Positions 26,123 to 53,889 of a stretch of 64,000 nucleotides of DNA are shown piece after piece. The stretch lies in contig JAQXXT010000004.1 of assembly GCA_029226205.1 (NCBI GenBank), forward strand, positions 1 to 64,000. Direction: 5' to 3'. Below the pieces are notes generated by a model that saw only the letters and a list, made by a program, of their open reading frames with translations, ran no database searches and was not told the origin of the DNA. Each line of letters opens with the position of its first letter. Position 1 is the first letter of the stretch. Both the position numbers and the translations under genes were made by a program. This DNA comes from Prevotellaceae bacterium (GTDB lineage Bacteria; Bacteroidota; Bacteroidia; Bacteroidales; Bacteroidaceae).

Positions 26123-26500
26123 TTACTTCTTCTTAGGACGCTTAGCACCGTACTTGGAACGGCGCTGTGTACGGTTGGCAACACCGGCGGTATCAAGGGT
26201 ACCACGAACGATGTGATAACGTACACCAGGAAGGTCCTTCACACGACCGCCACGAACGAGGACGATACTGTGCTCCTGAAGGTTGTGACCCTCACCAGGA
26301 ATGTAGGAGTTAACCTCCTTCTGGTTCGTCAGACGCACACGAGCCACCTTACGCATGGCGGAGTTAGGCTTCTTCGGAGTGGTTGTATAGACACGGACGC
26401 AGACACCACGACGCTGAGGACAGTTGTCCAAAGCCGGTGACTTACTCTTGTCTACAATCACCTTTCTGCCTTTTCTTACTAACTGTGAAATAGTAGGCAT
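26123..26500 (-). CDS. rpsL: Ribosomal protein S12
   Basis: [46 protein letters not shown]. Confidence 0.98.
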
Positions 26501-27072: not shown

Positions 27073-27139
27073 CCCAAACCGGGAATTGCAGGGGCCGTCC
27101 CTTGTGGCGGCCCGCCGTCGGAACGACGGATGTTCGGGA

Positions 27140-27215
27140 AAGACAGAGTAACAGATCAAACACAAAAAAAGACAGAATAACAAATGATGTTGCATCATCT
27201 GTTATTCTGTCTTCA
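27140..27215. repeat. CAGAATAACA/TGTTATTCTG hairpin repeat
   Basis: AAGACAGAATAACAAATGATGTTGCATCATCTGTTATTCTGTCTT; related hairpins near 37452-37510, 38088-38135, 42299-42350. Confidence 0.82.
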
Positions 27216-27217
27216 CC

Positions 27218-27320
27218 GTAGGGGCACCCCTTGTGGGCGCCCTACCCCCCTTAGGACGGCCACAAGGGCCGCGCCCTACGGGGGATCATTCCCCTTTATG
27301 ACGGCCACAAGGGCCGCACC
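27218..27320. repeat. GGCC-type palindromic repeat cluster
   Basis: CGTAGGGGCACCCCTTGTGGGCGCCCTA and GGACGGCCACAAGGGCCGCGCCCTACG units. Confidence 0.85.
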
Positions 27321-27328
27321 CTGCAAGA

Positions 27329-30300
27329 TTACATCACGATCACTTTCCAACTCTGCTGATGGCCGTCGGCGCAAGTGGCGCGGAGGACGACGACACCAGA
27401 GGGAACAGCGACGGAGAGCTTGGCTGCATGATTAGCGGTCACATTGGTGAGCAGTTGGCCAGCCTCATCGTAAGCCGTGAGGGAGCTGAGGTCAGCCTTT
27501 GAAGCCTTCACCGTAGCGACACCGTCGCTGACGGAGAGCACGAGAGCGCCATTGGCCTCAGAAACTGTATTCACACCTGTCGCAGCACCGATGCGAGAGA
27601 GATAGAATCGGCCGACATTATCGCCGTTCATCCAAACGGTAGGAGCAGCGTCGAGGGCATAGCTGTCACCTGTCTCACGATCATAGAGTTTCCAGTCGGA
27701 AGCATCAAAAGCCCCGGAGGTCTCAAAGCTCAGGCGGACGCTGTCAGCCTTTGTCATGAAGAAGCCGAGGTTGATAACATCTTGATCAACGGGACGGATA
27801 TCATAAGCCTTACCACCCTCTTCAGAGAAGATGGCGAATTGTGGCTTGTAATCCTCATCGATAAGTGTCGGTGCCTTTGTATCGTTGTCCTGGAGGAGGA
27901 CAGTACCGACATGATAGTTACCGGCATCAGCCTTCACACGCAGGAAGGACGGAACCTCCTCATCAGCATTATACCCCTTAGCAGCTGAAGCCGTAGACTG
28001 ATAGAGCTCATCAGAAGAAGCCGGCTGACCACCATACATATCTTTACTGTAGGTGACAGTCTGCGTAGCAGAATAGGTCGTCGTGGTGACATAATTCTTT
28101 GTCGTGGTCGTACCTTTCTGCATGACGAAGAATGCCTGTGCCGGACCGACATAGAGGTTCTTCGAAGCGAGGTCAGAGGAGCTGACAAGACTACCATTCA
28201 CGAGGATCACAGAGTAAGCCGTATTGCCATCGTAGCATTTCACGCCAGTAATATTGTTGCTGTTGGCATTGGCAATAGCCTCAAGGAAGCTCTTCACGTT
28301 GAGGTGACTCATCATCGGGTTACCGACGAGGAAGATACCATCAGTTGTACTACTATTCCCATCGGACGTATTCTTATAGGTCAGATTCAGCTCGTCACCG
28401 TTGGACCAGTTGTCACTCCAGAGTTTTGCGGAAGCATGACTAGGATCAACTGATGTACTCAACTTATTACCACTATTGTCATAATAATAATAGGTACGCG
28501 CACCGGACTTCGGCAGATGGACAAAGCATGTATCCGTATTTCCCTTAGCAGCCATCAGGGCGAAGCTCAAGGGCGCGTCACCACTGACTGTCGTCGTAGT
28601 GCCACTCGTCTTAGAAGATCCACTGAACGTAGCATAGTCGTAAGCAAGAGAGTTGAAGCCATTCGACCAACGGCTTGTCTCGACAGAGATAGTCGTAGGC
28701 GTTGCCGTTGTCATATCACTGTTCATATTGAACTGTACCTTATCACCCGTTGTATTCTCCCATACACGCTGGATGAGCGGGTAAGTCACACGGTCGACAA
28801 CATCGAGCTTGTTCTTCGTAGCGTTTTCATCGGTGAGCGGAGTGAAGTAATCCTTCTCCGCAATCTTACTGGCGAAGAAATCACCACTGACGAGCGACTG
28901 AACCGGCGACATATAGAGCCGCGTAACACCGGGCGTCAGAGCGAGGTCCACCCAGGCGCTGTTGTACTTCAGCCGATAGACATTCTCCACGGCAGCGTCA
29001 TGCTCGAAGTGGATACCGTTGCAGGCATTCTCGTAATCCTTATCAACATCCGTAGAGACATCAGTCAATACCGGATAAACTTTGGCACCAGCCGGGATGA
29101 TGACATTGGAGCAAGCAGAAGGTGCGCCCTCTACCCAGTTGTCCCAGTTGTTCCAATCCGTAGAAGCGGCATTGGTTCTCCAGTGGGTAGTAGTCGGATA
29201 TACCTTATAGTATACCTTGCCAAGAGTATTGCCGCTCTCATCGAGGATATAGGCTACCTGGTTGTCTCCAACCTTCTTAAGACTTATGTTATTTACAGAG
29301 AAGTTCAGAGAGCCGTCACTGTTGGCCCAGACTTTCTTCGTGAAAGACTCAGCGGGAACAAACACCTGGTAGTTGGCCGTCTTGTCCGTACCCTTCCAGG
29401 AGATTGTAGAAGTTTCACCCTCACAGACAGATGTCATCTTGAGATCGGTGATCTTCGGATCCTCACAGGAGTTGTCATCACGGTTATCAGGAACGCCATC
29501 GCCATCGGCATCCGACAGCAGGGCGATACCATAGAGCTTCTGCACATCAGCCACATTAGCCACGGCACCCATCGTGATGACGACCTCATCATACTGCTGT
29601 TTCGGCGACATGAGATAGATGTCACGGTCCTGTGTGGTGAGGACATCAGCACCGAGCACCTGCCAGGAGTTCTTGCTTTCACCCGTAGCCTTACCTTTAT
29701 AATAGGTCTCAATCTTCAGATAGTTACCGGCATTGACCGAGAGGTAGTGGTTGACATCCTTGTTCATCACCACAGCGAGCTGATGGCGGTAGTCGTAGGT
29801 ACGCCCGAGCTTGATGCCGAAGCTGTAGTAGGACCCGGCCTTCACGCCGTTACCCCAAGTTACGGCCGTCTCATAGTTAGGATCATCATCGACGGCATTG
29901 CCGAGATTCTCCATAAAGCCACCGACAGTAGCCAGAGACGCGTTGCTGCCACCTGCAGAGATCGTAGCGCCCGTAGCGCTGTTGCTCACCTGTGTGCTAC
30001 CGGCAAGCTGGTTATTGCATTTTTCAGCATCGCTGCCATCCTCATAGAAAGGATAGTAGATATTGAGTTTGGAGATAGAGAGACTCAACGTACCCGTGCT
30101 CCAGAGCGTGAACTCATCGAAGTCGGTACCGGCCGGAATGGTAGCGGCGAACTCGACCTTCTGCACATGGTTACTACCGGCGAGGGAGAGTCCGAGGACC
30201 TTAGAGTCAGAGACCAAGACAGAAGCCACAGCGTTATTGGGCTGTGCGGACTTACTGTTGTAGCACTTGATCATGAACCCATCGAGAAGATTAAGGTTCA

Positions 30301-32128
30301 AGCCCGTGGAAGTCGCCTCAACGACGAATCCGACGCGGATACTGTGTGTCTTGTCTTTCAGCAGAGAGGTGAAGGAGGTACCATCGGCACGCTTGACGCC
30401 GACGATCTCCACATTATGCGCAATCTGTACGCCACCCGTCCAGGAAGCGCATGTATTGGTGTTTCCATCGAAGATATTGGAGGAGTTCTTAAGACCAGAG
30501 ATAGAGAGCAGACTGCCACCGCCATGGCTGTTGTCGGCGAGAGCATATTCAGCCGTCTGTCCACTGATATTTTCAATCTTATTCTCACATGTACCGGAAG
30601 CATAAGCACCGGCGGCGATGCCACGTGTCAGCGAGATGGTCTCATAGCAACCATCAGCAGCCGTAGCCTTGATGACATAAGTGCCATTATAACTGTCGTC
30701 ATTCGTATGGGCGAAGGTGACGAGACCCGTATTGTCAACGGTACATTCCTTGGAGACATCCTTCTTGCCATCGGCAGCCTTCGCACTCTCCACCTCCCAT
30801 TTCGTGATATTGATATTGGGATTATGCTCAAGTTGAATGGTCTTGTTCTTGTTGCAGAGGCTCAGATCAGCCGTGAGGTCGATCGGGCAATGATGGTCGG
30901 CCTTCGTAGGAGCCGGAGTGACAAAGGCATAGTAGACACCCGTGCCACCGAGATCTACATTCAACAGTCCGGGAAAGAGGATCTCCACGGTAGAGAAGTC
31001 ATGCTTAGCCTCCACTGAGACTGTACGGTCACCGCCGGAGATCACCTGCAGTCCGAGGACAGAGGCATCGCAGTCTTCCGACTGTACCTTTTTGCCATTC
31101 TTGTCATAGAGATTGATATGAGCAAAAGTACCCACAGAGAGTTTCAGCAGACTGCCGGCCTTCATCTTAAATCCGACCATCGTACCGGCTTTGAAAAGGT
31201 CTGACTGGTCAGTATCATCACCTGTGGGTTTTGCCGTGACCTTATCAATGCCACTGATTCCGACACTGACCGGCAAGTTCAGACGGAAATTCGTGAGATC
31301 AGCATCAATAACCTTATCCGTACCGAGACCCCAGTTGACCGTTGCTACTGCGGGCTTACGCCCCATATCATTGCAATAGTCCTCAAGGTTCTTCTCGGTC
31401 TTCTCACTCTCCTTTCCAGTGGCGGGATTATTCGTGAGCGTATAGACATTGGCTGTACCGACATAAGCATATTTCAGCTTGGTGTTGGTAGCCACGTCAA
31501 CATTGACGCCCTGGGCTGTACAGAGCTCTATCTCATCATACTCCTGGGTAGGCGTCGCCTCCACATTGAAGCAGACATTCTTTGAGCCGGGGAGCTGGAC
31601 GAGGGAGAGGTTGACACCCTCAATGCTCTTACCGGCAGAAACGGTCTGCTGCTCCACGAACTGACCTTCGCGGAAGAAGCGGATGATATAGGTCTTACCG
31701 ACATCGAGCTTAAGAATACTCTTATCTGAAGAAGCATCAACACAGAAGCCTGCGGGGGTATTCGGCGCATAGTGGCGCTTCATATCGCGCACACTGACGA
31801 TCGGCGTGAAACCGAGGTTGGCTTGTACGAGAGAGGGGAATGACGCCTCATTGTCGAGGGTCGAATCCGTAAGGTTGTCGAGGTCATGGTTCAAAGAACC
31901 GACCTTCACCGTAGAGAAGAGGCGGTTGACGAGACAGTGCGGCCCTACGAGGGCGATGTGGTTGGAGAACTTGATGATGTTCTTCCCATCAGCCGTGTAA
32001 TAGCCGGTCTGCTCGTAGAGCGGCTTCCCTACTTCGGAATAGGTCTTCGGCGTTGTCGTGTCGGCTGCCAGCGGCATGGAGACGACGACGAGCAGAAGGC
32101 TAAGGATGAAATATTTAAAACGTGTCAT
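27329..32128 (-). CDS. Large secreted/surface protein, thrombospondin type-3-like segment
   Basis: 1599 aa; signal peptide MTRFKYFILSLLLVVVSMPLAA; DADGDGVPDNRDDNSCEDP; C-terminus ...TAYDEAGQLLTNV...SWKVIVM. Confidence 0.8.
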   Translation of the reverse strand: MTRFKYFILSLLLVVVSMPLAADTTTPKTYSEVGKPLYEQTGYYTADGKNIIKFSNHIALVGPHCLVNRLFSTVKVGSLNHDLDNLTDSTLDNEASFPSLVQANLGFTPIVSVRDMKRHYAPNTPAGFCVDASSDKSILKLDVGKTYIIRFFREGQFVEQQTVSAGKSIEGVNLSLVQLPGSKNVCFNVEATPTQEYDEIELCTAQGVNVDVATNTKLKYAYVGTANVYTLTNNPATGKESEKTEKNLEDYCNDMGRKPAVATVNWGLGTDKVIDADLTNFRLNLPVSVGISGIDKVTAKPTGDDTDQSDLFKAGTMVGFKMKAGSLLKLSVGTFAHINLYDKNGKKVQSEDCDASVLGLQVISGGDRTVSVEAKHDFSTVEILFPGLLNVDLGGTGVYYAFVTPAPTKADHHCPIDLTADLSLCNKNKTIQLEHNPNINITKWEVESAKAADGKKDVSKECTVDNTGLVTFAHTNDDSYNGTYVIKATAADGCYETISLTRGIAAGAYASGTCENKIENISGQTAEYALADNSHGGGSLLSISGLKNSSNIFDGNTNTCASWTGGVQIAHNVEIVGVKRADGTSFTSLLKDKTHSIRVGFVVEATSTGLNLNLLDGFMIKCYNSKSAQPNNAVASVLVSDSKVLGLSLAGSNHVQKVEFAATIPAGTDFDEFTLWSTGTLSLSISKLNIYYPFYEDGSDAEKCNNQLAGSTQVSNSATGATISAGGSNASLATVGGFMENLGNAVDDDPNYETAVTWGNGVKAGSYYSFGIKLGRTYDYRHQLAVVMNKDVNHYLSVNAGNYLKIETYYKGKATGESKNSWQVLGADVLTTQDRDIYLMSPKQQYDEVVITMGAVANVADVQKLYGIALLSDADGDGVPDNRDDNSCEDPKITDLKMTSVCEGETSTISWKGTDKTANYQVFVPAESFTKKVWANSDGSLNFSVNNISLKKVGDNQVAYILDESGNTLGKVYYKVYPTTTHWRTNAASTDWNNWDNWVEGAPSACSNVIIPAGAKVYPVLTDVSTDVDKDYENACNGIHFEHDAAVENVYRLKYNSAWVDLALTPGVTRLYMSPVQSLVSGDFFASKIAEKDYFTPLTDENATKNKLDVVDRVTYPLIQRVWENTTGDKVQFNMNSDMTTATPTTISVETSRWSNGFNSLAYDYATFSGSSKTSGTTTTVSGDAPLSFALMAAKGNTDTCFVHLPKSGARTYYYYDNSGNKLSTSVDPSHASAKLWSDNWSNGDELNLTYKNTSDGNSSTTDGIFLVGNPMMSHLNVKSFLEAIANANSNNITGVKCYDGNTAYSVILVNGSLVSSSDLASKNLYVGPAQAFFVMQKGTTTTKNYVTTTTYSATQTVTYSKDMYGGQPASSDELYQSTASAAKGYNADEEVPSFLRVKADAGNYHVGTVLLQDNDTKAPTLIDEDYKPQFAIFSEEGGKAYDIRPVDQDVINLGFFMTKADSVRLSFETSGAFDASDWKLYDRETGDSYALDAAPTVWMNGDNVGRFYLSRIGAATGVNTVSEANGALVLSVSDGVATVKASKADLSSLTAYDEAGQLLTNVTANHAAKLSVAVPSGVVVLRATCADGHQQSWKVIVM

Positions 32129-32143
32129 AATCCAACCCTTTGA

Positions 32144-32383
32144 TTAATCGTCATTAACATCCCAGCCATTATCGGAACCGGCGACACTACCATTATTACT
32201 GATAACATTGCCCCAGGTCTCGGAAGCTGTAGAGGGAGAATTAGGATTACCGGCAACTGTCTGATCTTGCATAAAGCCATACACTTTAGGCATAAGTGAC
32301 ACACGGGGACTAGCCATTACCAGCTGGCTCATCTCGAGCGCATAGCATTGAATCTTCGGACGAGCGTATATTTTCTTGTTCAT
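32144..32383 (-). CDS. Small hypothetical protein (79 aa) between two large surface-protein genes
   Basis: MNKKIYARPKIQCYALEMSQLVMASPRVSLMPKVYGF...GWDVNDD; same strand, 15-bp gap to the 1599-aa gene. Confidence 0.6.
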   Translation of the reverse strand: MNKKIYARPKIQCYALEMSQLVMASPRVSLMPKVYGFMQDQTVAGNPNSPSTASETWGNVISNNGSVAGSDNGWDVNDD

Positions 32384-32424
32384 ATCGTTAATCGTTTTTA
32401 TTATTTTGAAGATGAATCATGTCC

Positions 32425-34998
32425 CTACTTCACGACCTTCTTACCATTGCAGATATAGAAGCCATGAGCGGGCAGGACGACGCGGCGGCCCGTGAGGTCG
32501 TAACAGTCATCAGGACGGGCGATGGTCTCCGGGATCTCATGGATGCCCGTGGCAGGGCTGTCATCGAAGAAGACGGAGAGGACAGACTTGGCCGCTGTGG
32601 TCGTCGGGGCATTGACGAAACAGCGGTTGGCCATCGGATACTCGTCAAGGGGATGGACGAGAGAGAGATTGCTCTGCGTCGTCGCCGTCTTTCCACTCTC
32701 CTCCAGCGTACTACTGAAAACGTAGTATTTATCCTTATTATCCGTGGTGTAGATGCCGCTCGTCGATCCGGGAGTACGGAACCAGAGATCCTCGCTCTCA
32801 ACGACACCCGTGAGGATATCATTATCGGCATCTACAGTAGAAGATGTAGCGGGCTCGAGGTTGAATGTGACGGTCTGAATCTGCGCGTCCGACTTATCGG
32901 TAGGCTCCTCATAGACGAAGACGCCCTTGTTGGCGGGAACGTCGGCGACACGACTGAAGATGACGCCACTGTTGTCATTGTTGAATCTTGCCGTATAGAG
33001 TTTGGCACCCTTTGTAGCCACTGTAGCATGGAAGGGGAAGTAGACGGAGACATAGCGCGGTCCCGTGGCATCAGCCTTACCATCGGAGGTCACATTCATA
33101 TAACCCGTGACGGCATCAATCGTCTCAGCTTTCTGGAAATCCCAAATTGCATTGGAACTAAGCTTCTTGACACTTGTTTCAGAAGAAAGATAGAGACCGG
33201 CAGTATATGGAGCGGTTTGCTTGTTACTGACCATATAATCATTATTGATCACGATATATCCGGCTTTCGTATCTGCCTGGTTCGAGGGATCCCGATAAAC
33301 AAGATAATACTCACCATCACAGTCGCTCACGGGTTCCATCCAGAACTCGGCGGCAGTCTTCGGTACGGTACCATTGTCACCTTCAGCGATAAGGGTGAAG
33401 AAACCTTCCGTACCCGGTTGTCCGAGATACTTGCCGCTATTGGCATTCTGCAGCACATAGATATTATGCTCATGCGGATTGACGATACCAATCATACTTT
33501 CTCCATTTGAGCCCTTATACAACAGTTTCACGCGCCAGAGGTTGGCAGCCACTGTCTTCACGCGAGGACCGGAGATGACATCGATCATCGGCATAACCTT
33601 GAAATAGGGCTTCGTATTACTCTTGTTCGTGGCAAGATAGAGGTCATAATGACGCATATCACGATGGTCTACATCGGTGAGCCAGCCACCCGATGTGGAA
33701 CCGCCGAGACGATAGCCGTTGTTCTCAATACGGAAGAAGGAGGCGCCATTATCCGCTGCCATCTTCGCATCCGTATAGGCCACATGGTCGTTCTTACGTG
33801 TCGACGGATCGTAGGCAACGAACTTCCAATCAGGATCAGTGATATAATGGTCAGCAGCAGAATAATAGCTGCTCAGCGTCTCTTCCGTGGCTTTACGCTC
33901 ATAACTGGCAACGAGGATCTTCTTGTTATTTTGATCACTGATCTGACGGTAAGCGCTGTTGGCATCGGAGGAAGTCAGCAAGTGGAGATAGGTATTGTCT
34001 GCCGTCACCGTCTTACCGGCATTCATATACAGATAGGCCTTCGTCTGGTCTGTGAGATTATTCAAGCCACTCAGAGATGCAAGTTGATAGATATTTTTAT
34101 CCGTATCATGGTTAACAGCCCAGATGCAGTCGTTGTTGATGAAGTTGGACATGTAAATCGTACCGTCCTTCCGGCGGCCGAGGTAGGTGTCGTAACGGCG
34201 ACTCTTGATGACGTAGGAGCCATTGTCGGCATTGTCACCCGTCTGGCCATTGATATTCACCGTGGCAGTCTGATTGCCGTTATCCGTATTATACTTGGCA
34301 ATAATCGCAATGAGCGATCTGAAATTGGCAGCATTGACGGTATTCTCATCGGGCAATGTCTCGCCGGTCTCCAACTTAGCCTTGGCTACCTGATAAAGGT
34401 CGGAATAAGTCAGAAAGCGATAGGTGGCGAGGAGATAATAATTTGTCACGCTATGGGTGCGATCATCAATGGAAGTGGATGAAGAAGAGAGACAATTATA
34501 ATAGCCCTTATCCGGATAGATGTTATAATAGTAAGTATACCAAATCTTACCCTGATAGAGCGGATCACTGCTGACCATATATCCCTCACGGTTATAGTCA
34601 TTGCGGAGGATATACCAGCAGGGAGCAGAGGCGGAAGTGGTTTCCGCATTCTGGCAATAATCATTTGAAACATTAGTACCTACATAGTACTTTGTCTTCC
34701 CGTCGGCACTCTGGGTATAGATCTTATACCCCTCATCGGTGCCGCTACCCTTTTCGAAGTACCAAACGTCCGTAGTGCCGGAGAAACTGCCTGGCGTCTC
34801 ACTGCCTGGCGTCTCATTGAGATAATACTTACTGGTTGTGTCGTAATGCAGGAAAGTCTGAGTTTCCTGATTATAAACGACATAAGGGGTACCCACTACG
34901 GGATAGAAGTTTCCATTACTCGCAGCCCAACCGCCTAGCGGGAAGGTGGCAAAGAGTAAGAGGAAGAAACTGATCAATGATAAATTGATTCGTCTCAT
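32425..34998 (-). CDS. Secreted/surface protein with C-terminal YDLTGRRV...GFYICNGKKVVK-type domain
   Basis: 857 aa; signal peptide MRRINLSLISFFLLLFATFPLGGWAA. Confidence 0.78.
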   Translation of the reverse strand: MRRINLSLISFFLLLFATFPLGGWAASNGNFYPVVGTPYVVYNQETQTFLHYDTTSKYYLNETPGSETPGSFSGTTDVWYFEKGSGTDEGYKIYTQSADGKTKYYVGTNVSNDYCQNAETTSASAPCWYILRNDYNREGYMVSSDPLYQGKIWYTYYYNIYPDKGYYNCLSSSSTSIDDRTHSVTNYYLLATYRFLTYSDLYQVAKAKLETGETLPDENTVNAANFRSLIAIIAKYNTDNGNQTATVNINGQTGDNADNGSYVIKSRRYDTYLGRRKDGTIYMSNFINNDCIWAVNHDTDKNIYQLASLSGLNNLTDQTKAYLYMNAGKTVTADNTYLHLLTSSDANSAYRQISDQNNKKILVASYERKATEETLSSYYSAADHYITDPDWKFVAYDPSTRKNDHVAYTDAKMAADNGASFFRIENNGYRLGGSTSGGWLTDVDHRDMRHYDLYLATNKSNTKPYFKVMPMIDVISGPRVKTVAANLWRVKLLYKGSNGESMIGIVNPHEHNIYVLQNANSGKYLGQPGTEGFFTLIAEGDNGTVPKTAAEFWMEPVSDCDGEYYLVYRDPSNQADTKAGYIVINNDYMVSNKQTAPYTAGLYLSSETSVKKLSSNAIWDFQKAETIDAVTGYMNVTSDGKADATGPRYVSVYFPFHATVATKGAKLYTARFNNDNSGVIFSRVADVPANKGVFVYEEPTDKSDAQIQTVTFNLEPATSSTVDADNDILTGVVESEDLWFRTPGSTSGIYTTDNKDKYYVFSSTLEESGKTATTQSNLSLVHPLDEYPMANRCFVNAPTTTAAKSVLSVFFDDSPATGIHEIPETIARPDDCYDLTGRRVVLPAHGFYICNGKKVVK

Positions 34999-35121
34999 AA
35001 CCTTTGATTTTGTTTAATTTTATATATATGTTCTCTATAATCTAGTTCAATCCAATTCCGAGTATCTTAATCGTCGGATCACATTTTGATTTTTACTGCT
35101 GTCCTCTTTTCTAAGGGCGTG

Positions 35122-35129
35122 CAAAGGTA
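35122..35129 (-). promoter_or_regulatory. Putative -7 box (TACCTTTG) upstream of the 857-aa surface-protein gene
   Basis: CAAAGGTA on + strand; no clear -33 element found. Confidence 0.45.
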
Positions 35130-35306
35130 CAAATAAACTTTCAGATTGATATGACATTTGTGTTACAATTTTTGGTTGGAACGGGTGATTTTAAGTTAAT
35201 AAATCTGAATTTCAAAGAATATTTGTCCATATTTTTGATAACTCATCCATAAATTTCACAAAATGAACAAGTTACAAAGTTTGAATTTATAAGGAGATGG
35301 CGATTA

Positions 35307-35319
35307 GGGGGGGGGGGGG
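35307..35319. repeat. 13-bp poly-G (poly-C on minus strand) homopolymer
   Basis: gattaGGGGGGGGGGGGGacgg. Confidence 0.95.
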
Positions 35320-35560
35320 ACGGAAAAGCCACTACCATGCTTACAAACAACTGTTTTTCATACATTTCAGAGGAATGATTGGTCTGTCCTCAGAAAATTT
35401 TACCCATATAAAAAAGGAGATGGTTACGATTTAAAACTTCGAAAATCCAAAGGGGCTCTTCACCCCGTTTGTCCATAAATTTTAGGAATCGTAGCTGTCA
35501 AGATTTGTACGGAAAAATTTTAACAATTCCACCGAGATTGCCATTTTGGAAATCCCGGGA

Positions 35561-35815
35561 GATTATCAATGGATTACGTCTCCAGGCACAAATTCCCCCA
35601 TCAATATCCATCCATTGTGGCGGTGTTTGACGTCTCCATTAATATACATTAATTGAACATTAATGGATATTCCATGATGCCACAAGATTAATGGATCATT
35701 AATGATCATTCATGGAGACGGGAAAAAGGCGCCACTGGTTTTTATTTTGTTTTTATAGGTTTTCTTCGTAAAACAAACGCCCACGGTTTTATTTTTGTTT
35801 TTTGTTGAATCCAAT
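35561..35815. repeat. Long direct repeat, copy A, with palindromic core 35616-35737
   Basis: atcaatggattacgtctccaggcacaa...GTGGCGGTGTTTGACGTCTCCATTAATATAC...ATTCATGGAGACGGGAAAAAGGCGCCAC...gttgaatccaatc. Confidence 0.88.
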
Positions 35816-35822
35816 CCACCAA

Positions 35823-37409
35823 TCATGTTCCAACGGCCCAATCCTCTATCGTACGCGTCTCCTTGTCGACCTTCACGCCGACCCTGACCACTCGACGGCG
35901 GTCCGCCTCATAGGGAGCGGCATAACCATGGGTATCGATCTGCAAAAGAGCCGCCCGGGCGCTCTCATTGACATTCAGTTCAAAGATATAGATCGTATCC
36001 GACATGAAAACGACAACATCAACACGTCCATGGGCAACCTTCACCTGTGTACGGACATAAACGTTAAGCATGGAGAAGATCAAATAGAATGTATACTCAT
36101 AGAATCCCTCAGCCGTAGCAGCCTCACGGAGCTTCTTCTTGAAACCCTCTACATAAGGCAGTCCGGCCAGATAAGCCTGCAGATGACGGAGTGCAAGATC
36201 AATGTCTCCCGACTTCAAGGCCCGCCAGAACTTCAAGGCAAAACCAGCTTGTACTTCTCCGCCATTCAGTCCCGTGAATGCCGGCAACAGACCCTCCGTA
36301 TACCCGATGCGCACTTCCTGATTAGGGATCGAGAGGGTATAAAGCTCACCCTCGGGATCATAATCCTTAATCGTCAGATAACCACTCTGATAGAGCAGCG
36401 GCAGAGCATCCTGCATATTCTCCGTCGGTTGGTCGAAAGAGGAAGCAGGAACTTCCAACGTGTCGAGGGCTGTAATATCCGTATGAAAATATTGCAACTG
36501 ACGAATAAGGAATGTCGGCGTACCACTCTCAAACCAATAATTCGCCACCTTCCGGCGAAGAAAGGCCTTCAACAGACTGAAAGGATTATATACTTCGGGG
36601 GAATTCTCCGAGAAATGATATCCGTCATAGCGCATTTTCAAACGCTGATGCATCTCTTCCGACGAGATGCCATAGGCACCGGCAAGGTCCTCCACATCCT
36701 GCCACAATGTCGACGTCAACTCCTCTTCCGTAATACCACAGATGGCGGAGAAACGTGGATCGAGGGTGACATTGGTGAGGTTGTTGAGCGTAGAGAATAT
36801 ACTCAGTTGGGAAAATTTCGTAATACCGGTAATGAAACAGAATTTTATCCGCGGTTCATTGACCTTCAACGGCTGGTAGAACTCCTGCATCACAGCACGC
36901 ATATCCTGCAATAGATCCCTTCGATGAAGGACATCGAGCAGTGGCGCGTCATATTCGTCGATGATAACGACTACCTGCTTACCCGTACGCTTATAGAGAC
37001 GGTTGATCATGCCATTGAGGATCTCGCCCGGACTTTCCTCCAGGTCCTCGCGCTCATAGCCTTCCATATTCGTCAACAGCCATAGTAAGCCCCTGCGGAG
37101 ATCATCAGCGCAGGACTTTCCTTTAACGATACTGAGGTCCAGATGGATCACGGGATACTGCACCCAATCTGTTTCATAATCCATCACCTTCAATCCTTTG
37201 AACAAGTCCTTCTCTCCCCTCCAATAAGCATCGAGCGTAGAGGTCAACAGTGATTTACCAAAACGACGGGGACGACTGAGGAACACAAATGTAGTAAAAT
37301 GGGCAAGTTGCCAGACGAGGTCAGTCTTGTCCACATAGACATATCCCTCGCGGATCATTCGCGAGAAGGTCTGTATGCCAACGGGATATTTTCTTTTTTG
37401 CTGTTCCAT
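35823..37409 (-). CDS. AAA-ATPase-like protein with C-terminal PD-(D/E)XK nuclease-like domain (AAA-ATPase_like / DUF1703 type)
   Basis: 528 aa; FVFLSRPRRFGKSLLTSTLDAYW (Walker A), VVVIIDEYDAPLLD (Walker B), GRVDVVVFMSDTIYIFELNVNESARAALLQI. Confidence 0.88.
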   Translation of the reverse strand: MEQQKRKYPVGIQTFSRMIREGYVYVDKTDLVWQLAHFTTFVFLSRPRRFGKSLLTSTLDAYWRGEKDLFKGLKVMDYETDWVQYPVIHLDLSIVKGKSCADDLRRGLLWLLTNMEGYEREDLEESPGEILNGMINRLYKRTGKQVVVIIDEYDAPLLDVLHRRDLLQDMRAVMQEFYQPLKVNEPRIKFCFITGITKFSQLSIFSTLNNLTNVTLDPRFSAICGITEEELTSTLWQDVEDLAGAYGISSEEMHQRLKMRYDGYHFSENSPEVYNPFSLLKAFLRRKVANYWFESGTPTFLIRQLQYFHTDITALDTLEVPASSFDQPTENMQDALPLLYQSGYLTIKDYDPEGELYTLSIPNQEVRIGYTEGLLPAFTGLNGGEVQAGFALKFWRALKSGDIDLALRHLQAYLAGLPYVEGFKKKLREAATAEGFYEYTFYLIFSMLNVYVRTQVKVAHGRVDVVVFMSDTIYIFELNVNESARAALLQIDTHGYAAPYEADRRRVVRVGVKVDKETRTIEDWAVGT

Positions 37410-37539
37410 AGTCGACGGAGTATTTTTTGCAAATTTACGTTTTTATTTTGGATTACACAAAAAAAACACAGAATAACAGACCCTACGCTACTTCTGTTAC
37501 TCCTTATTTATATCATATTCCACACTTTACCATATTGCC

Positions 37540-37790
37540 CCATCAATATTCATCAATAGCGCCAACAATAACCGTCAATGGGATACCAAGGCATCACATC
37601 AATATTCATCCATCGTGGCGGCATCGTCGTCTCCATTAATATACATTAATTGATCATTAATCGATATTCCATGAAGCCACAGATTAATGGTCCATTAATG
37701 ATTATTAATGGAGAAGAAAGAAAGGGCGCAGCCGGTTTTTATCATGTTTTTATCGGTTTTCTTCGTAAGCAAAGAAAATTTTCATGGAAT
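37540..37790. repeat. Long direct repeat, copy B, palindromic core 37615-37734
   Basis: catcaatattcatccatcGTGGCGGCATCGTCGTCTCCATTAATATAC...TTAATGGAGAAGAAAGAAAGGGCGCAGCC. Confidence 0.88.
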
Positions 37791-37819
37791 TCCAACAGTA
37801 TTTTTTAGCAACCTTGGAC

Positions 37820-38083
37820 AATTATCAATGGATTACGTTTCCATGCACAATTATCCCCATCAATATTCATCCCTCCTAGCGGTGTTTGTCGTCTCCATTA
37901 ATATACATTAATTGAACATTAATCGATATTCCATGAAGCCACAGATTAATGGTCCATTAATGATTATTAATGGAGAAGAAAAAGAGTGCGCAGCCGGTTT
38001 TTATCATGTTTTTATCGGTTTTCTTCTTAAAACAAACACCCACGGTTTTATTTTGGTTTTATTTGGTTTTTGTAGAATCCAAT
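37820..38083. repeat. Long direct repeat, copy C, palindromic core 37876-37995 (tandem with copy B)
   Basis: atcaatggattacgtttccatgcacaattatccccatcaatattc...ttttgtagaatccaatc; same order as copies A and D. Confidence 0.9.
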
Positions 38084-38087
38084 CAGA

Positions 38088-38318
38088 CACAAAAAAACAG
38101 AGTAACAGATCATGTGTGCAATCTGTTACCCTGTATTTATTATTGTATTCCCCCATTAGGACGGCCACAAGGGCCGCACCCTACGAGAGGATCGTTTGCC
38201 AACGTAGGGGCGCCCCTTGTGGGCGCCCTAATTGCCACGATTCCCGGTTAGGACGGCCACAAGGGCCGCACCCTACGAAGGGATCACAGGCCACAAGGGC
38301 CGCACCCTACGAAGGGAG
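38088..38318. repeat. CAGAGTAACAGA hairpin plus GGCC-type repeats abutting the DUF3467 stop codon
   Basis: cacaaaaaaacagagtaacagatcatgtgtgcaatctgttaccctg then CGTAGGGGCGCCCCTTGTGGGCGCCCTA / GGACGGCCACAAGGGCCGCACCCTACG units. Confidence 0.88.
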
Positions 38319-38320
38319 AA

Positions 38321-38659
38321 TTAGTTTTCCTTATTGTTTACACCTGTACCGAAGGGAGCGATGGTGCGGGGACCCTGCTGAGCCTCCTCGGGGAGCTTGA
38401 TCTTGCCAAACTCCTGCTCGTACTTCGTGACATTGCCCTGGAGAGCCATGAGCAGACGCTTAGCGTGCTCAGGAGCCATGACGATACGGCTGGAAACGGG
38501 AGACTTCGGCATGCCCGGAAGAACGGTGCAGAAGTCGAGGATGAAATCACTGGAAGAGTGTGTGATGATGGCCAGGTTAGCGTATACGCCCTTGGCTACT
38601 TCGGGAGAGAGCTCGATCTGGAGCTGGTTCTCCGGCTGATTGTTGTTGTTGTCTGCCAT
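38321..38659 (-). CDS. DUF3467-family protein
   Basis: 112 aa; IELSPEVAKGVYANLAIITHSSSDFILDFCTVLPGMPKSPVSSRIVMAPEHAKRLLMALQGNVTKYE. Confidence 0.85.
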   Translation of the reverse strand: MADNNNNQPENQLQIELSPEVAKGVYANLAIITHSSSDFILDFCTVLPGMPKSPVSSRIVMAPEHAKRLLMALQGNVTKYEQEFGKIKLPEEAQQGPRTIAPFGTGVNNKEN

Positions 38660-38773: not shown

Positions 38774-41113
38774 TTAAATTTTCACCCAGGAATCCTTCCC
38801 AGTAGGGTTGATAAGTTTGTTTCTCTTCCATCGGCTGATGACGGTACGGACACTGTGTTCCTTGCATCCCACACCCTTCAGGCGCATCACCTCTTCCAAC
38901 GTGAAAGTATTGGGCAACTGGTCGAAGAGGCGGTTGTTAGCCGACTTGTAGATTCCGGTGGTCGGGGTAAAATCATCCCAGCTCTGCTGAAGGAGGTTGC
39001 CGAAGATTCTCATCTGCTCAAAGAGCACATACTCGGCCATCATCAGCGCGAAATCGACGCATTTCTTGTCCTCCTTGTCGTTGAGCAGACGGTAGATACA
39101 TCCGGCGCGGAACCCGATGACGGCGGACCGCTTGCGGTAGACATCCATCACCTTGTCGTCATTCTTCATGGCCACGATGCGCTTCTCCTCCACCCACTTG
39201 GCGATGGCTTTTCTCAGCCGGGGCGTATCGATATAGCCCGACTGAGCTCGCAGTTTGGTGACGGCAGTGAGGATATTCTTGTTGTCTGCCTCACTCCGGT
39301 GACCATAGACAGGCATCTTGGCGAAGTCGTTGTTGGGCATCTCAGCGATGATCATTCGTGAAGAGAGGCCGTTCTCCACATTGTCAATCCGGAAACACTT
39401 CCGCAACGCGCCGTAGGTGCCGAGCATCGTCCAGTTGTACGCCACCTTGACGACACCGCTCTCCGCCTGCTCGCCATTATAGTCCTGACCCCACTCGCCA
39501 TTGTCGAAGGCCACACGATAGATATCGTATTTGTTGGACCAGCTACCGGCACCGTTGCTCTTGCGCAACGTATCGAGTTCCTCGCCGAAGGAATAGAGGC
39601 AATGGCCCTGGGAGTTCTTCAGACGCCGCAGAAGGGTTGAGTTACTGACCGTCGGGGGAACGATGCGAATGATGGTCTTGGGATCCTCGGGGGCACGCTC
39701 ACTGGCCTTGCGGCCATATTTCTTATGCCGCCAGTCTTCCTCGATCTTTCGGTTGGCGGCATCCTCGTCCTCGAGCGGTTGCTTCCATACATCGATGACA
39801 TCCTTGCAGACACTCTTGCCGCTGGCCTGCTCACCGACGATGATCGACATCAAGCCCAGGCGCTGATAGTTGCCATTGCAGTATTTCACCTCCACCTGGT
39901 CGGCAAGGGCTCCCGCGATGGTGAGGACGCTGCAAAGGACGGGCATATACATATTCTCAGGAACGCCCGTCAGACTCTCCTTCAAGCCCATGGGCAGTCG
40001 GCGGGCATTGATCTTCTCCCACGCCTTCTTCTCCGGCTTCGGCTCCTTCTGCCGAGCGTCAGCGGCCTCGCTGCCGCCGCTGACTTTCTGCTCCGCAAGG
40101 GCCAGGATGCGCTGACAAGCCGTTGACATTAACTTACTCTCGTCGTGATAACGATTGTAGAAATCATGGATCAATCGGCGGCAATCGTCATCCTGGGCGT
40201 AATACTCCGGCATCTTCTTAGCCACGACAGCCTCCAGCTCCTGACACGACATGAGGCGGGCGGCACCGACACTCATGATGGACTGCAGACAGGTATGGCG
40301 TGATCCGATGGCATTGATGTCCACATGTTCCAAGCCGGCTTCCTGCTGACAGAGGTCGAAAATCAGGAGATCCTTGCGCATGCAACGGTCGAGATCCCGC
40401 TCCGGAATCTTTGCCGCTGCCTTTACCGGAGTTATCTCTGAGGCTTTGTCAGAATGCTTGTCATCTGCCGTGACAGGAGCCTTTACTGCAACCGGAGAGG
40501 GAGCGAGCGACAGGGCGTGATACCGCTTTGAAGAGGCCAGGGCGTCACGGTACATCCGGAGATCATCGTCACTCATCTTCTCATACCAGTGCTCAGAGCG
40601 GTAGATCTCATCTTCTATCGGCGTTATGAAGATGATACGCTCGGGAGTGACACAACTGTGATCGTAATCAATGCCCATGAGGTCGCCGTACTCCTTCTGG
40701 GTCTGTTCGATGGTCATTCCCAAGGGGAGACGGAGGTCGATGTGCAGCTTTTTCGAGGCGCTGTACTCCATGTGGAGAAGTTTGCCGCGCCATTTGCCGG
40801 GCTGCTCATCGAGCTCACGGGCCCGGTCGATAGCTTCCGGGACCTTGTCGGCATCATCGATGTCCACACAAGTCTGGAAAAGGAAGGACTCGGGCTGAAT
40901 GGCCGACTGGCAGCGGCGGTCATCCTTGAAGGCGTAGTAATGAGGGGAGCGGAAGGGCAGCTGCTTCTTCAGGAGTTTGTTGCCCTGTCGGATCTCTGAA
41001 ACCAGTTCGCGCAGCCAGTTCTCGCGGATCAGTCGGTCATAGTCGGCTAGTGTCAGAGTAGAGATGCGGCCCATGTTCCCGGCCCGCTGGGGATTAAATG
41101 CTATGAGATGCAT
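38774..41113 (-). CDS. VirE-N/BT4734-like primase domain plus DUF3987 helicase-like domain protein
   Basis: 779 aa; N-terminal VDIDDADKVPEAIDRAREL, YSASKKLHIDLRLP; Walker A-like IIVGEQASGKSVCKDVI. Confidence 0.78.
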   Translation of the reverse strand: MHLIAFNPQRAGNMGRISTLTLADYDRLIRENWLRELVSEIRQGNKLLKKQLPFRSPHYYAFKDDRRCQSAIQPESFLFQTCVDIDDADKVPEAIDRARELDEQPGKWRGKLLHMEYSASKKLHIDLRLPLGMTIEQTQKEYGDLMGIDYDHSCVTPERIIFITPIEDEIYRSEHWYEKMSDDDLRMYRDALASSKRYHALSLAPSPVAVKAPVTADDKHSDKASEITPVKAAAKIPERDLDRCMRKDLLIFDLCQQEAGLEHVDINAIGSRHTCLQSIMSVGAARLMSCQELEAVVAKKMPEYYAQDDDCRRLIHDFYNRYHDESKLMSTACQRILALAEQKVSGGSEAADARQKEPKPEKKAWEKINARRLPMGLKESLTGVPENMYMPVLCSVLTIAGALADQVEVKYCNGNYQRLGLMSIIVGEQASGKSVCKDVIDVWKQPLEDEDAANRKIEEDWRHKKYGRKASERAPEDPKTIIRIVPPTVSNSTLLRRLKNSQGHCLYSFGEELDTLRKSNGAGSWSNKYDIYRVAFDNGEWGQDYNGEQAESGVVKVAYNWTMLGTYGALRKCFRIDNVENGLSSRMIIAEMPNNDFAKMPVYGHRSEADNKNILTAVTKLRAQSGYIDTPRLRKAIAKWVEEKRIVAMKNDDKVMDVYRKRSAVIGFRAGCIYRLLNDKEDKKCVDFALMMAEYVLFEQMRIFGNLLQQSWDDFTPTTGIYKSANNRLFDQLPNTFTLEEVMRLKGVGCKEHSVRTVISRWKRNKLINPTGKDSWVKI

Positions 41114-42035: not shown

Positions 42036-42065
42036 AGGGACATGATTCATCATGTTCCGTCGATT

Positions 42066-42297
42066 TCCTCCATCAATAATCATCAATCGTGGCGGCATCG
42101 TCGTCTCCATTAATATACATTTATAAATCATTAATGGATATTCCATGATGCCACAAGATTAATGGATCATTAATGATCATTAATGGAGACGAAAAACGGC
42201 GCCACCCGGTTTTTATCATGTTTTTAAAGGTTTTCTTCTTTAAACAAACACCCATGGTTTAATTTTGGTTTTGATATGGTTTTTGTTGAAACAATCA
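42066..42297. repeat. Long direct repeat, copy D, palindromic core 42089-42205
   Basis: catcaataatcatcaatcGTGGCGGCATCGTCGTCTCCATTAATATAC...ATTAATGGAGACGAAAAACGGCGCCACC. Confidence 0.9.
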
Positions 42298-42298
42298 G

Positions 42299-42560
42299 GC
42301 ACAAAAAAAACAGAGTAACAGACCATGTGATAAATCTGTTACTCTGTCTTTATTATTGTATTCCCCCAACATCCGACCTTCGGTCGGCGGACGGCCACAA
42401 GGGCCGCACCCTACGAGAGGATCACCTGCCACCGTAGGGGCACCCCTTGTGGGCGCCCTAATGGCCACGATCCCCGGTTAGGACGGCCACAAGGGCCGCA
42501 CCCTACGAAGGGATCAATCCCCGGTTAGGACGGCCACAAGGGCCGCACCCTACGAGAGGG
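42299..42560. repeat. CAGAGTAACAGA hairpin plus GGCC-type repeats abutting the rpoC stop codon
   Basis: Same order as 38088-38318. Confidence 0.88.
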
Positions 42561-42569
42561 AAGGAGGCT

Positions 42570-46925
<4,356 letters not shown>

Positions 46926-53123: not shown

Positions 53124-53675
53124 TTATCCTTCTTTTTCTACCTGATTATAATTCAGCTCCAGCGGGGTCTTGCGGCCAAAGATCTTGACCATGACCTTCA
53201 ACTTGTGCTTCTCTTCGTTGACTTCCTCGATGACTCCCGTGAATCCGTTGAACGGACCATCGGTCACTTTCACCGTCTCATCAACGACATACGGGATATC
53301 TACCGTCTCGTCGATCTCCGACTCTGTAGCCTGACCCAGCATGCGATTGATCTCGCTCTGCGGCACCGGCGTAGGATCATCGAGTCCACCGAGGAATCCC
53401 AGCACATTCGGCATGAAGCGTAATTTTGAAGCAATATCTCCATTTCCAAGGTTTGCCTCTACAAAGACATAACCCGGCAGGGCCACCTTCTCTTTGATGA
53501 CTCGCTTACTACCATGCATCACGGCATGCTTCTCCATCGGAATGAGAATCTGGGAGACATGACGCGAAAGGAGCTCATTGTGCTTCATCTCAGCTTCAAT
53601 GTACTCCTTTACCTTCATCTCCTTGCCGCTGACGGCTTTCATCACGTACCATTTGTTATTATTTGTCTCAGCCAT
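53124..53675 (-). CDS. nusG: Transcription termination/antitermination factor NusG
   Basis: [19 protein letters not shown]...[47 protein letters not shown]. Confidence 0.97.
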
Positions 53676-53688
53676 TTTCCTTTCTCCT

Positions 53689-53889
53689 TTAACCGGGATA
53701 AATAACACCCATGATCCAGCTGAACAAAGAGTCCATTGCGAATACGATCAATGCGATGACGAGAGATGCTGAAAGAACGACCATCGCGCTGTGCGTCAGT
53801 TCTCCTGCCGTCGGCCATGTCGTCTTGTGAGCAAGCTCATCATAGCATGCCTTGCAATAATTGATTGCCTTGTGGATAAATTGATTCAT
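53689..53889 (-). CDS. secE: Preprotein translocase subunit SecE
   Basis: MNQFIHKAINYCKACYDELAHKTTWPTAGELTHSAMVVLSASLVIALIVFAMD. Confidence 0.93.
   Translation of the reverse strand: MNQFIHKAINYCKACYDELAHKTTWPTAGELTHSAMVVLSASLVIALIVFAMDSLFSWIMGVIYPG

Follow-up and report, generated by a model that had tools for sequence, protein, structure and literature searches.

Dispersed MITE-like palindromes and AAA-ATPase_like/PDDEXK_9 genes as two probably unrelated elements of a variable rpoC-DUF3467-rpsL hotspot in a Prevotellaceae bacterium

Introduction

The closest described systems to the palindromic repeats treated here are BrickBuilt and the other MITEs of Porphyromonas gingivalis, a member of the same bacterial order, which resemble them in being short, non-coding and intergenic, in numbering about 20 copies, and in their inverted-repeat ends, repeated internal motifs and truncated copies (PMC4596501). 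The CGTC- and GTAG-tagged REPs (PMC3733652) offer a second likeness in their intergenic position, in a palindromic core framed by CGTC...GACG and in the GTAGG with which GC-rich repeats near our palindromes often start. CGTC-type REPs have no dedicated transposase (PMC3733652). For the AAA-ATPase/nuclease gene that stands among the palindromes, the DUF1703 genes of Cardinium share the two-domain architecture PF09820 plus PF08011, lineage-specific expansion and inferred horizontal spread (PMC6387759). The Rpn genes (YhgA-like, PF04754) are comparable as PD-(D/E)XK genes with several dispersed paralogs per genome and a sporadic distribution, and Rpn nucleases are reported to promote RecA-independent recombination (PMC5350276).

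The window analysed here is a stretch of 64,000 nucleotides, bases 1-64000 of a 73-kb contig (C4), from a metagenome-assembled genome (MAG) of 2.51 Mb in 124 contigs. It was compared with the close relative Prevotella sp. AGR2160 (~95% identical) and with congeners, two of which, G066 and G069, are ~93-95% identical wherever flanks are shared. The original prediction joined the AAA-ATPase gene and the palindromes around it into one mobile cassette. Our preferred reading, with a probability of about 0.7, is that two unrelated things occupy one variable hotspot, namely dispersed MITE-like palindromes and AAA-ATPase_like/PDDEXK_9 genes that turn over as compact units.

Results

The palindromic repeat occurs in the window as follows:

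35541-35820, + strand: copy A (core 35603-35764), which lies just beyond the 3' end of the AAA gene and has both a left extension and a T-rich tail
37541-37798, + strand: copy B (core 37601-37761), which in its left part also matches the 327-bp family described below
37821-38084, + strand: copy C (core 37862-38023), likewise with a left extension and a T-rich tail
42065-42290, + strand: copy D with T-rich tail (core 42075-42235)

The predicted layout of four copies in one orientation with a B-C period of ~262 bp was borne out, as all four lie on the + strand with aligned extents of 35603-35801 (A), 37601-37798 (B), 37862-38060 (C) and 42075-42272 (D), and the B-C spacing measured 262 bp. Their mutual identity is 63-86% over 171 nt without gaps, and blastn with copy D as the query gave 83-88% against the other copies in the window. 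Each core is an imperfect palindrome, with arms of 35-40 nt in B, C and D that are 80-86% complementary and separated by ~20 nt. Folded as single-strand DNA, the copies reached z values of -4.9 (A), -5.6 (B), -8.6 (C) and -5.8 (D), and for none of the four was any of 200 shuffles as stable. The palindromic nature of the core beginning with GTGGCG was thereby upheld, but the outer pairing GTGGCG...GGCGCCAC proposed for it is good in A and D only, the right ends of B and C being GGGCGCAGCC and GTGCGCAGCC. Similarly, the T-rich tail expected after each core was found in all four copies, but it is dispersed as a repeat of its own, with 18 sites at no more than 2 mismatches versus 3 for the reversed control, and many of its sites stand without a palindrome. 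The left extension is common to A and C and missing from B and D. Copies C and D also share the following ~250 bp, which consist of a terminator hairpin and GC-rich repeats (81% over 289 bp). GC-rich palindromic repeats (GGACGGCCACAAGGGCCGCACCCTACGA), located at 38149-38317 and 42371-42559 and on many contigs, are very abundant, often GTAGG-tagged and GTAG REP-like.

With copy D as the query, similarity searches, from which the repeat counts derive, found matching intergenic sites on about a dozen other contigs of the genome. The best of these matches represent an element of 327 bp (type copy C79:20594-20920) that occurs both in full and with internal deletions, and the neighbours of the dispersed palindromes are ordinary genes. 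Aligned copies have sharp common ends, GGCGCACCGGATATT... and ...AATTATCCGGTGCC, beyond which the sequence is unrelated. The type copy carries terminal inverted repeats of ~60 bp, its outer 60 bases being 91% identical over 57 aligned positions, and CATYAAT/ATTRATG motifs recur every 10-12 bp in the element, whose longest ATG frame of 44 aa leaves it with no coding ORF. The family shows three of the features by which bacterial MITEs are recognised: non-coding elements of 50-1000 bp, terminal inverted repeats, and dispersed intergenic sites with occupied/empty polymorphism. Opposite the palindromes on contigs C118 and C79, the corresponding gaps in AGR2160 measure 29 and 53 bp; both differences also take in other DNA. 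The 327-bp family is present in AGR2160, and at a dinB-like locus (C21 in the source genome, C6 in AGR2160) palindromes are found in both strains. Against 59 relatives the 327-bp element had no match at E<=1e-5. Plasmids gave no match to the repeat, a core-pattern scan of viral contigs gave nothing among the matches inspected, and Rfam assigned no family to the repeat-bearing stretches, only tRNAs in the window. By eye, the aligned copies show no consistent target-site duplication, the single 8-bp candidate (GGAAAAAA) being at C77. An end-motif search of this incomplete MAG found no transposase with the same ends and returned mostly family copies together with scattered two-mismatch sites. A CGTC REP was considered and rejected: the core is framed by CGTC...GACG, but the element is far longer than a 20-40 bp single stem-loop and has terminal repeats. 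The most plausible reading of the palindromes is as MITE-like passengers, non-coding, dispersed and shared with AGR2160. Beside the palindrome on C118 lies a sequence of ~390 bp (L109:10255-10640) with partial similarity (67-74%) to parts of L110 and L188.

The gene between copies A and B is the following:

35823-37409, - strand: 528-aa AAA-ATPase_like (PF09820) plus PDDEXK_9 (PF08011) protein, Walker A and B intact, with a Lys to Asn change (codon AAT at 35973-35975)

Both domains scored above the cut-off (PF09820, E 2e-60, 204.5 bits; PF08011, E 1.1e-15, 57.9 bits). We rejected membership of the Rpn family, as PF09820 and PF08011 were matched and PF04754 was not. Of the catalytic D...ExK residues, D464 and E477 are kept and position 479 is Asn. 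In a comparison of 74 family members 480 aa or longer, Lys occupies this third position in 73, and the window copy alone has Asn; its nuclease is therefore probably inactive, as judged from the residue pattern. The dN/dS against the AGR2160 gene is 0.06, a value averaged over the whole divergence. Searches of PHROGs, PADLOC, NCBIfam and PDB sequences gave no match to the protein, while relatives were found in 62 plasmid records, all below 60% identity, and on only three viral contigs.

The palindromes had been proposed as the specific ends of a cassette, on which the AAA/PDDEXK protein acts for its own movement. Direct copies on both sides of the window gene speak for this, as does the AGR2160 gene on that strain's own contig C4, which has a related palindrome ~160 bp beyond its 3' end, so that gene and palindrome recur together at this one locus. 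But the association does not extend to the rest of the family, of which the source genome has four PF09820 genes versus only two in AGR2160. Three of the four in the source genome have no palindrome within ~2.8 kb: none lies in the 10-11 kb around the genes on C81 and C104, and the palindrome nearest to the gene on C118 is 2.8 kb away, past another gene. The second AGR2160 gene, on its contig C15, likewise has none in 10-11 kb, and no palindrome occurred in 75 stretches (426 kb) around PF09820 genes of five congeners. Conversely, many repeats stand without such a gene. The prediction that other DUF1703 genes would be flanked by the core was thus contradicted. The gene on C118 (5645-7369) is absent from AGR2160, where its flanks are joined at the matching site, which bears out the empty site looked for in related strains; its junctions, however, hold no palindrome. 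Together with the missing catalytic Lys in the window protein, these findings make the cassette-end model extremely improbable, and we conclude that the palindromes are not the ends of an ATPase cassette. Two observations had been named in advance as counting against the original prediction. One of them, a genome-wide repeat without gene association, is what we found; the other, a lack of empty-site polymorphism, does not apply, because an absence polymorphism exists, though without palindrome involvement. Inspection by eye of the C118 and congener-pair flanks found no inverted repeats bounding the AAA gene, and an insertion sequence with this gene as its transposase was rejected on that ground. 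Short palindromes (GTGCAAAGGCC/GGCCTTGCAC) upstream of the C118 gene (L109:7187-7370) recur near another element, L020 (C100).

The surroundings of the gene are laid out below (no strand is assigned to hairpins, repeats and the 8.8-kb stretch):

26123-26500, - strand: conserved 125-aa gene, the other hotspot boundary, presumably rpsL by position and size
27075-35832: 8.8-kb stretch holding two large ORFs (1599 and 857 aa) on the DUF3467-rpsL side, not at this place in AGR2160
35833-37502, - strand: segment homologous to the AGR2160 gene at its other position, from ~10 bp inside the ORF 3' end to the terminator-like hairpin 93 bp upstream of the ATG
37462-37526: terminator-like hairpin upstream of the AAA gene, forming one repeat family with the hairpins that follow rpoC and DUF3467
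38091-38317: terminator hairpin and GC-rich repeats downstream of DUF3467, a near-copy of 42304-42559
38321-38659, - strand: DUF3467 protein (PF11950), 98% identical in AGR2160 and adjoining rpoC in congeners whose fetched stretch has both
38774-41113, - strand: DUF3987 protein lying between rpoC and DUF3467, which AGR2160 also has (dS 0.63), not seen in other congener stretches
42304-42559: terminator hairpin and GC-rich repeats downstream of rpoC
42570-46925, - strand: rpoC, conserved hotspot boundary

The order in congeners, where the fetched stretch reaches, is rpoC, DUF3467 and the conserved 125-aa gene. From rpoC, the window reads palindrome D, DUF3987, DUF3467, palindromes C and B, AAA, palindrome A, the two large ORFs (neither with a Pfam or NCBIfam match) and rpsL, and AGR2160 reads AAA, palindromes with other genes, DUF3987, DUF3467 and rpsL, which puts the AAA counterpart across DUF3467 from its place in the window. 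The homologous stretch of the two AAA genes reaches no further than the ORF 3' end on one side and 93 bp upstream of the ATG on the other. The dS of this pair is 1.26, imprecise as any value above 1 yet clearly above the background set by 24 other genes of the stretch, whose values lie at 0.006-0.65 and for the most part at 0.1-0.27, and the C4 genes are therefore not simply one inherited gene in two places. Another family pair, C81 and the AGR2160 gene on C15, has a dS of 0.15 and 98% protein identity. The nusG gene (53124-53708) also stands out, with a dS of 0.65 against AGR2160, far above most neighbours. The terminator-like hairpins at 27162-27213, 37462-37526, 38091-38155 and 42304-42368 are close copies of each other that follow different genes. 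In AGR2160, two short adjacent ORFs between palindromes (L188, C4:165040-165660) look toxin-antitoxin-like by eye.

The changed order could also have arisen by passive shuffling: homologous recombination between intergenic repeats in direct orientation (palindromes, terminator hairpins) would have duplicated parts of rpoC-AAA-DUF3987-DUF3467 and later removed some of them, the gene itself being immobile. In the window, the terminator and palindrome block that follows rpoC is indeed a near-copy of the one that follows DUF3467, the repeats are directly oriented, and duplication followed by deletion yields the observed order. We nevertheless consider this fairly unlikely, as a dS far above that of the neighbours does not fit the same inherited gene merely moved, and C118 would go unexplained. 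The window order is known from one MAG contig, and an artefact of a fragmented assembly that is 87% complete, with repeats abundant in its gaps, would be another source of it. However, the 14-37% divergence among copies A-D should let reads tell them apart, AGR2160 matches long blocks to either side at 94-96%, and the dS excess is independent of gene order, all of which leaves an assembly error very unlikely. The best explanation is that the rpoC-DUF3467-rpsL region received AAA genes independently in the two species, on opposite sides of DUF3467. The earlier claim that the AAA gene is mobile gains from its different position and dS history in AGR2160 and from the clean absence there of the second member on C118; mobility of the window gene itself is partly supported.

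Family copies per congener genome range from 0 to 39, and those in G066 and G069 show what is shared between sites. Four copies (L224, L226, L254 and L255) that are 93-96% identical occupy four unrelated sites, and the shared extent comprises 85-98 bp upstream, the ORF and no more than 26 bp downstream. For L225/L253, which have a common left flank, the alignment runs more than 900 bp upstream. The shared leader of the four copies appears promoter-like from a TATTATCTTTGCC-like element. Around 17 G069 genes, a search for a recurring flanking repeat found only leader-sized stretches and a few short matches in common.

These compact segments might instead reflect gene conversion among old paralogs without any movement of genes. 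In Cardinium, DUF1703 paralogs are reported to recombine frequently (PMC6387759), the shared segments coincide with the functional unit, and conversion could give matching ORFs in unlike flanks. But most sites are not common to the two genomes: at least 11 of 15 G069 stretches have no extended flank in common with 27 G066 stretches (five further G066 copies lie outside this comparison). Moreover, for three G066 sites (L241, L250 and L254) one flank was recovered in G069, each time in a 20-kb stretch devoid of family genes; matches of G066 copies to G069 stretches were one-sided only, giving no two-sided empty sites. The C118 gene is a presence/absence difference as well. We regard conversion as doubtful, though it is the strongest of the alternatives.

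Discussion

The AAA-ATPase_like/PDDEXK_9 family most plausibly represents compact units whose turnover comes about through imprecise integration or through loss. Each unit would consist of a promoter-sized leader and the ORF, with no repeat at its ends. The absences would be explained by gain rather than loss, and movement may proceed by breakage and imprecise repair rather than by end recognition, active members of the family perhaps inducing the breaks in the manner of Rpn nucleases. A stronger version makes them self-spreading single-gene elements, in which an active member cuts the chromosome and the break is filled with a copy of its promoter and ORF; the dispersed copies would then lack terminal repeats and have ragged ends. 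We hold this distinctly unlikely. The palindromes, for their part, would be moved in trans by a separate enzyme and would decay by deletion between short internal repeats. Copies A-D would be a divergent local subfamily, which may serve as passive homology for local rearrangement.

Palindromes and an AAA gene that a reader would naturally join are here set apart. A multi-copy family of unknown role gains an evolutionary signature, namely compact single-gene turnover and independent arrival between rpoC and rpsL.

Compared with the known systems, the 327-bp element differs from BrickBuilt in having no 23-nt tandem array, and no insertion sequence with matching ends was found for it. REPs measure 20-40 bp with CGTC-type stems of 8-9 bp, whereas elements of the window family are 110-330 bp long, with arms of 35-60 bp and definite terminal repeats (PMC3733652). 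Rpn is a different family with no AAA domain described (PMC5350276). The Cardinium DUF1703 genes (PMC6387759) are the nearest match in architecture; the window copy differs in lacking the catalytic Lys, and the present family adds a presence/absence site, a change of position between close strains and compact duplicated units.
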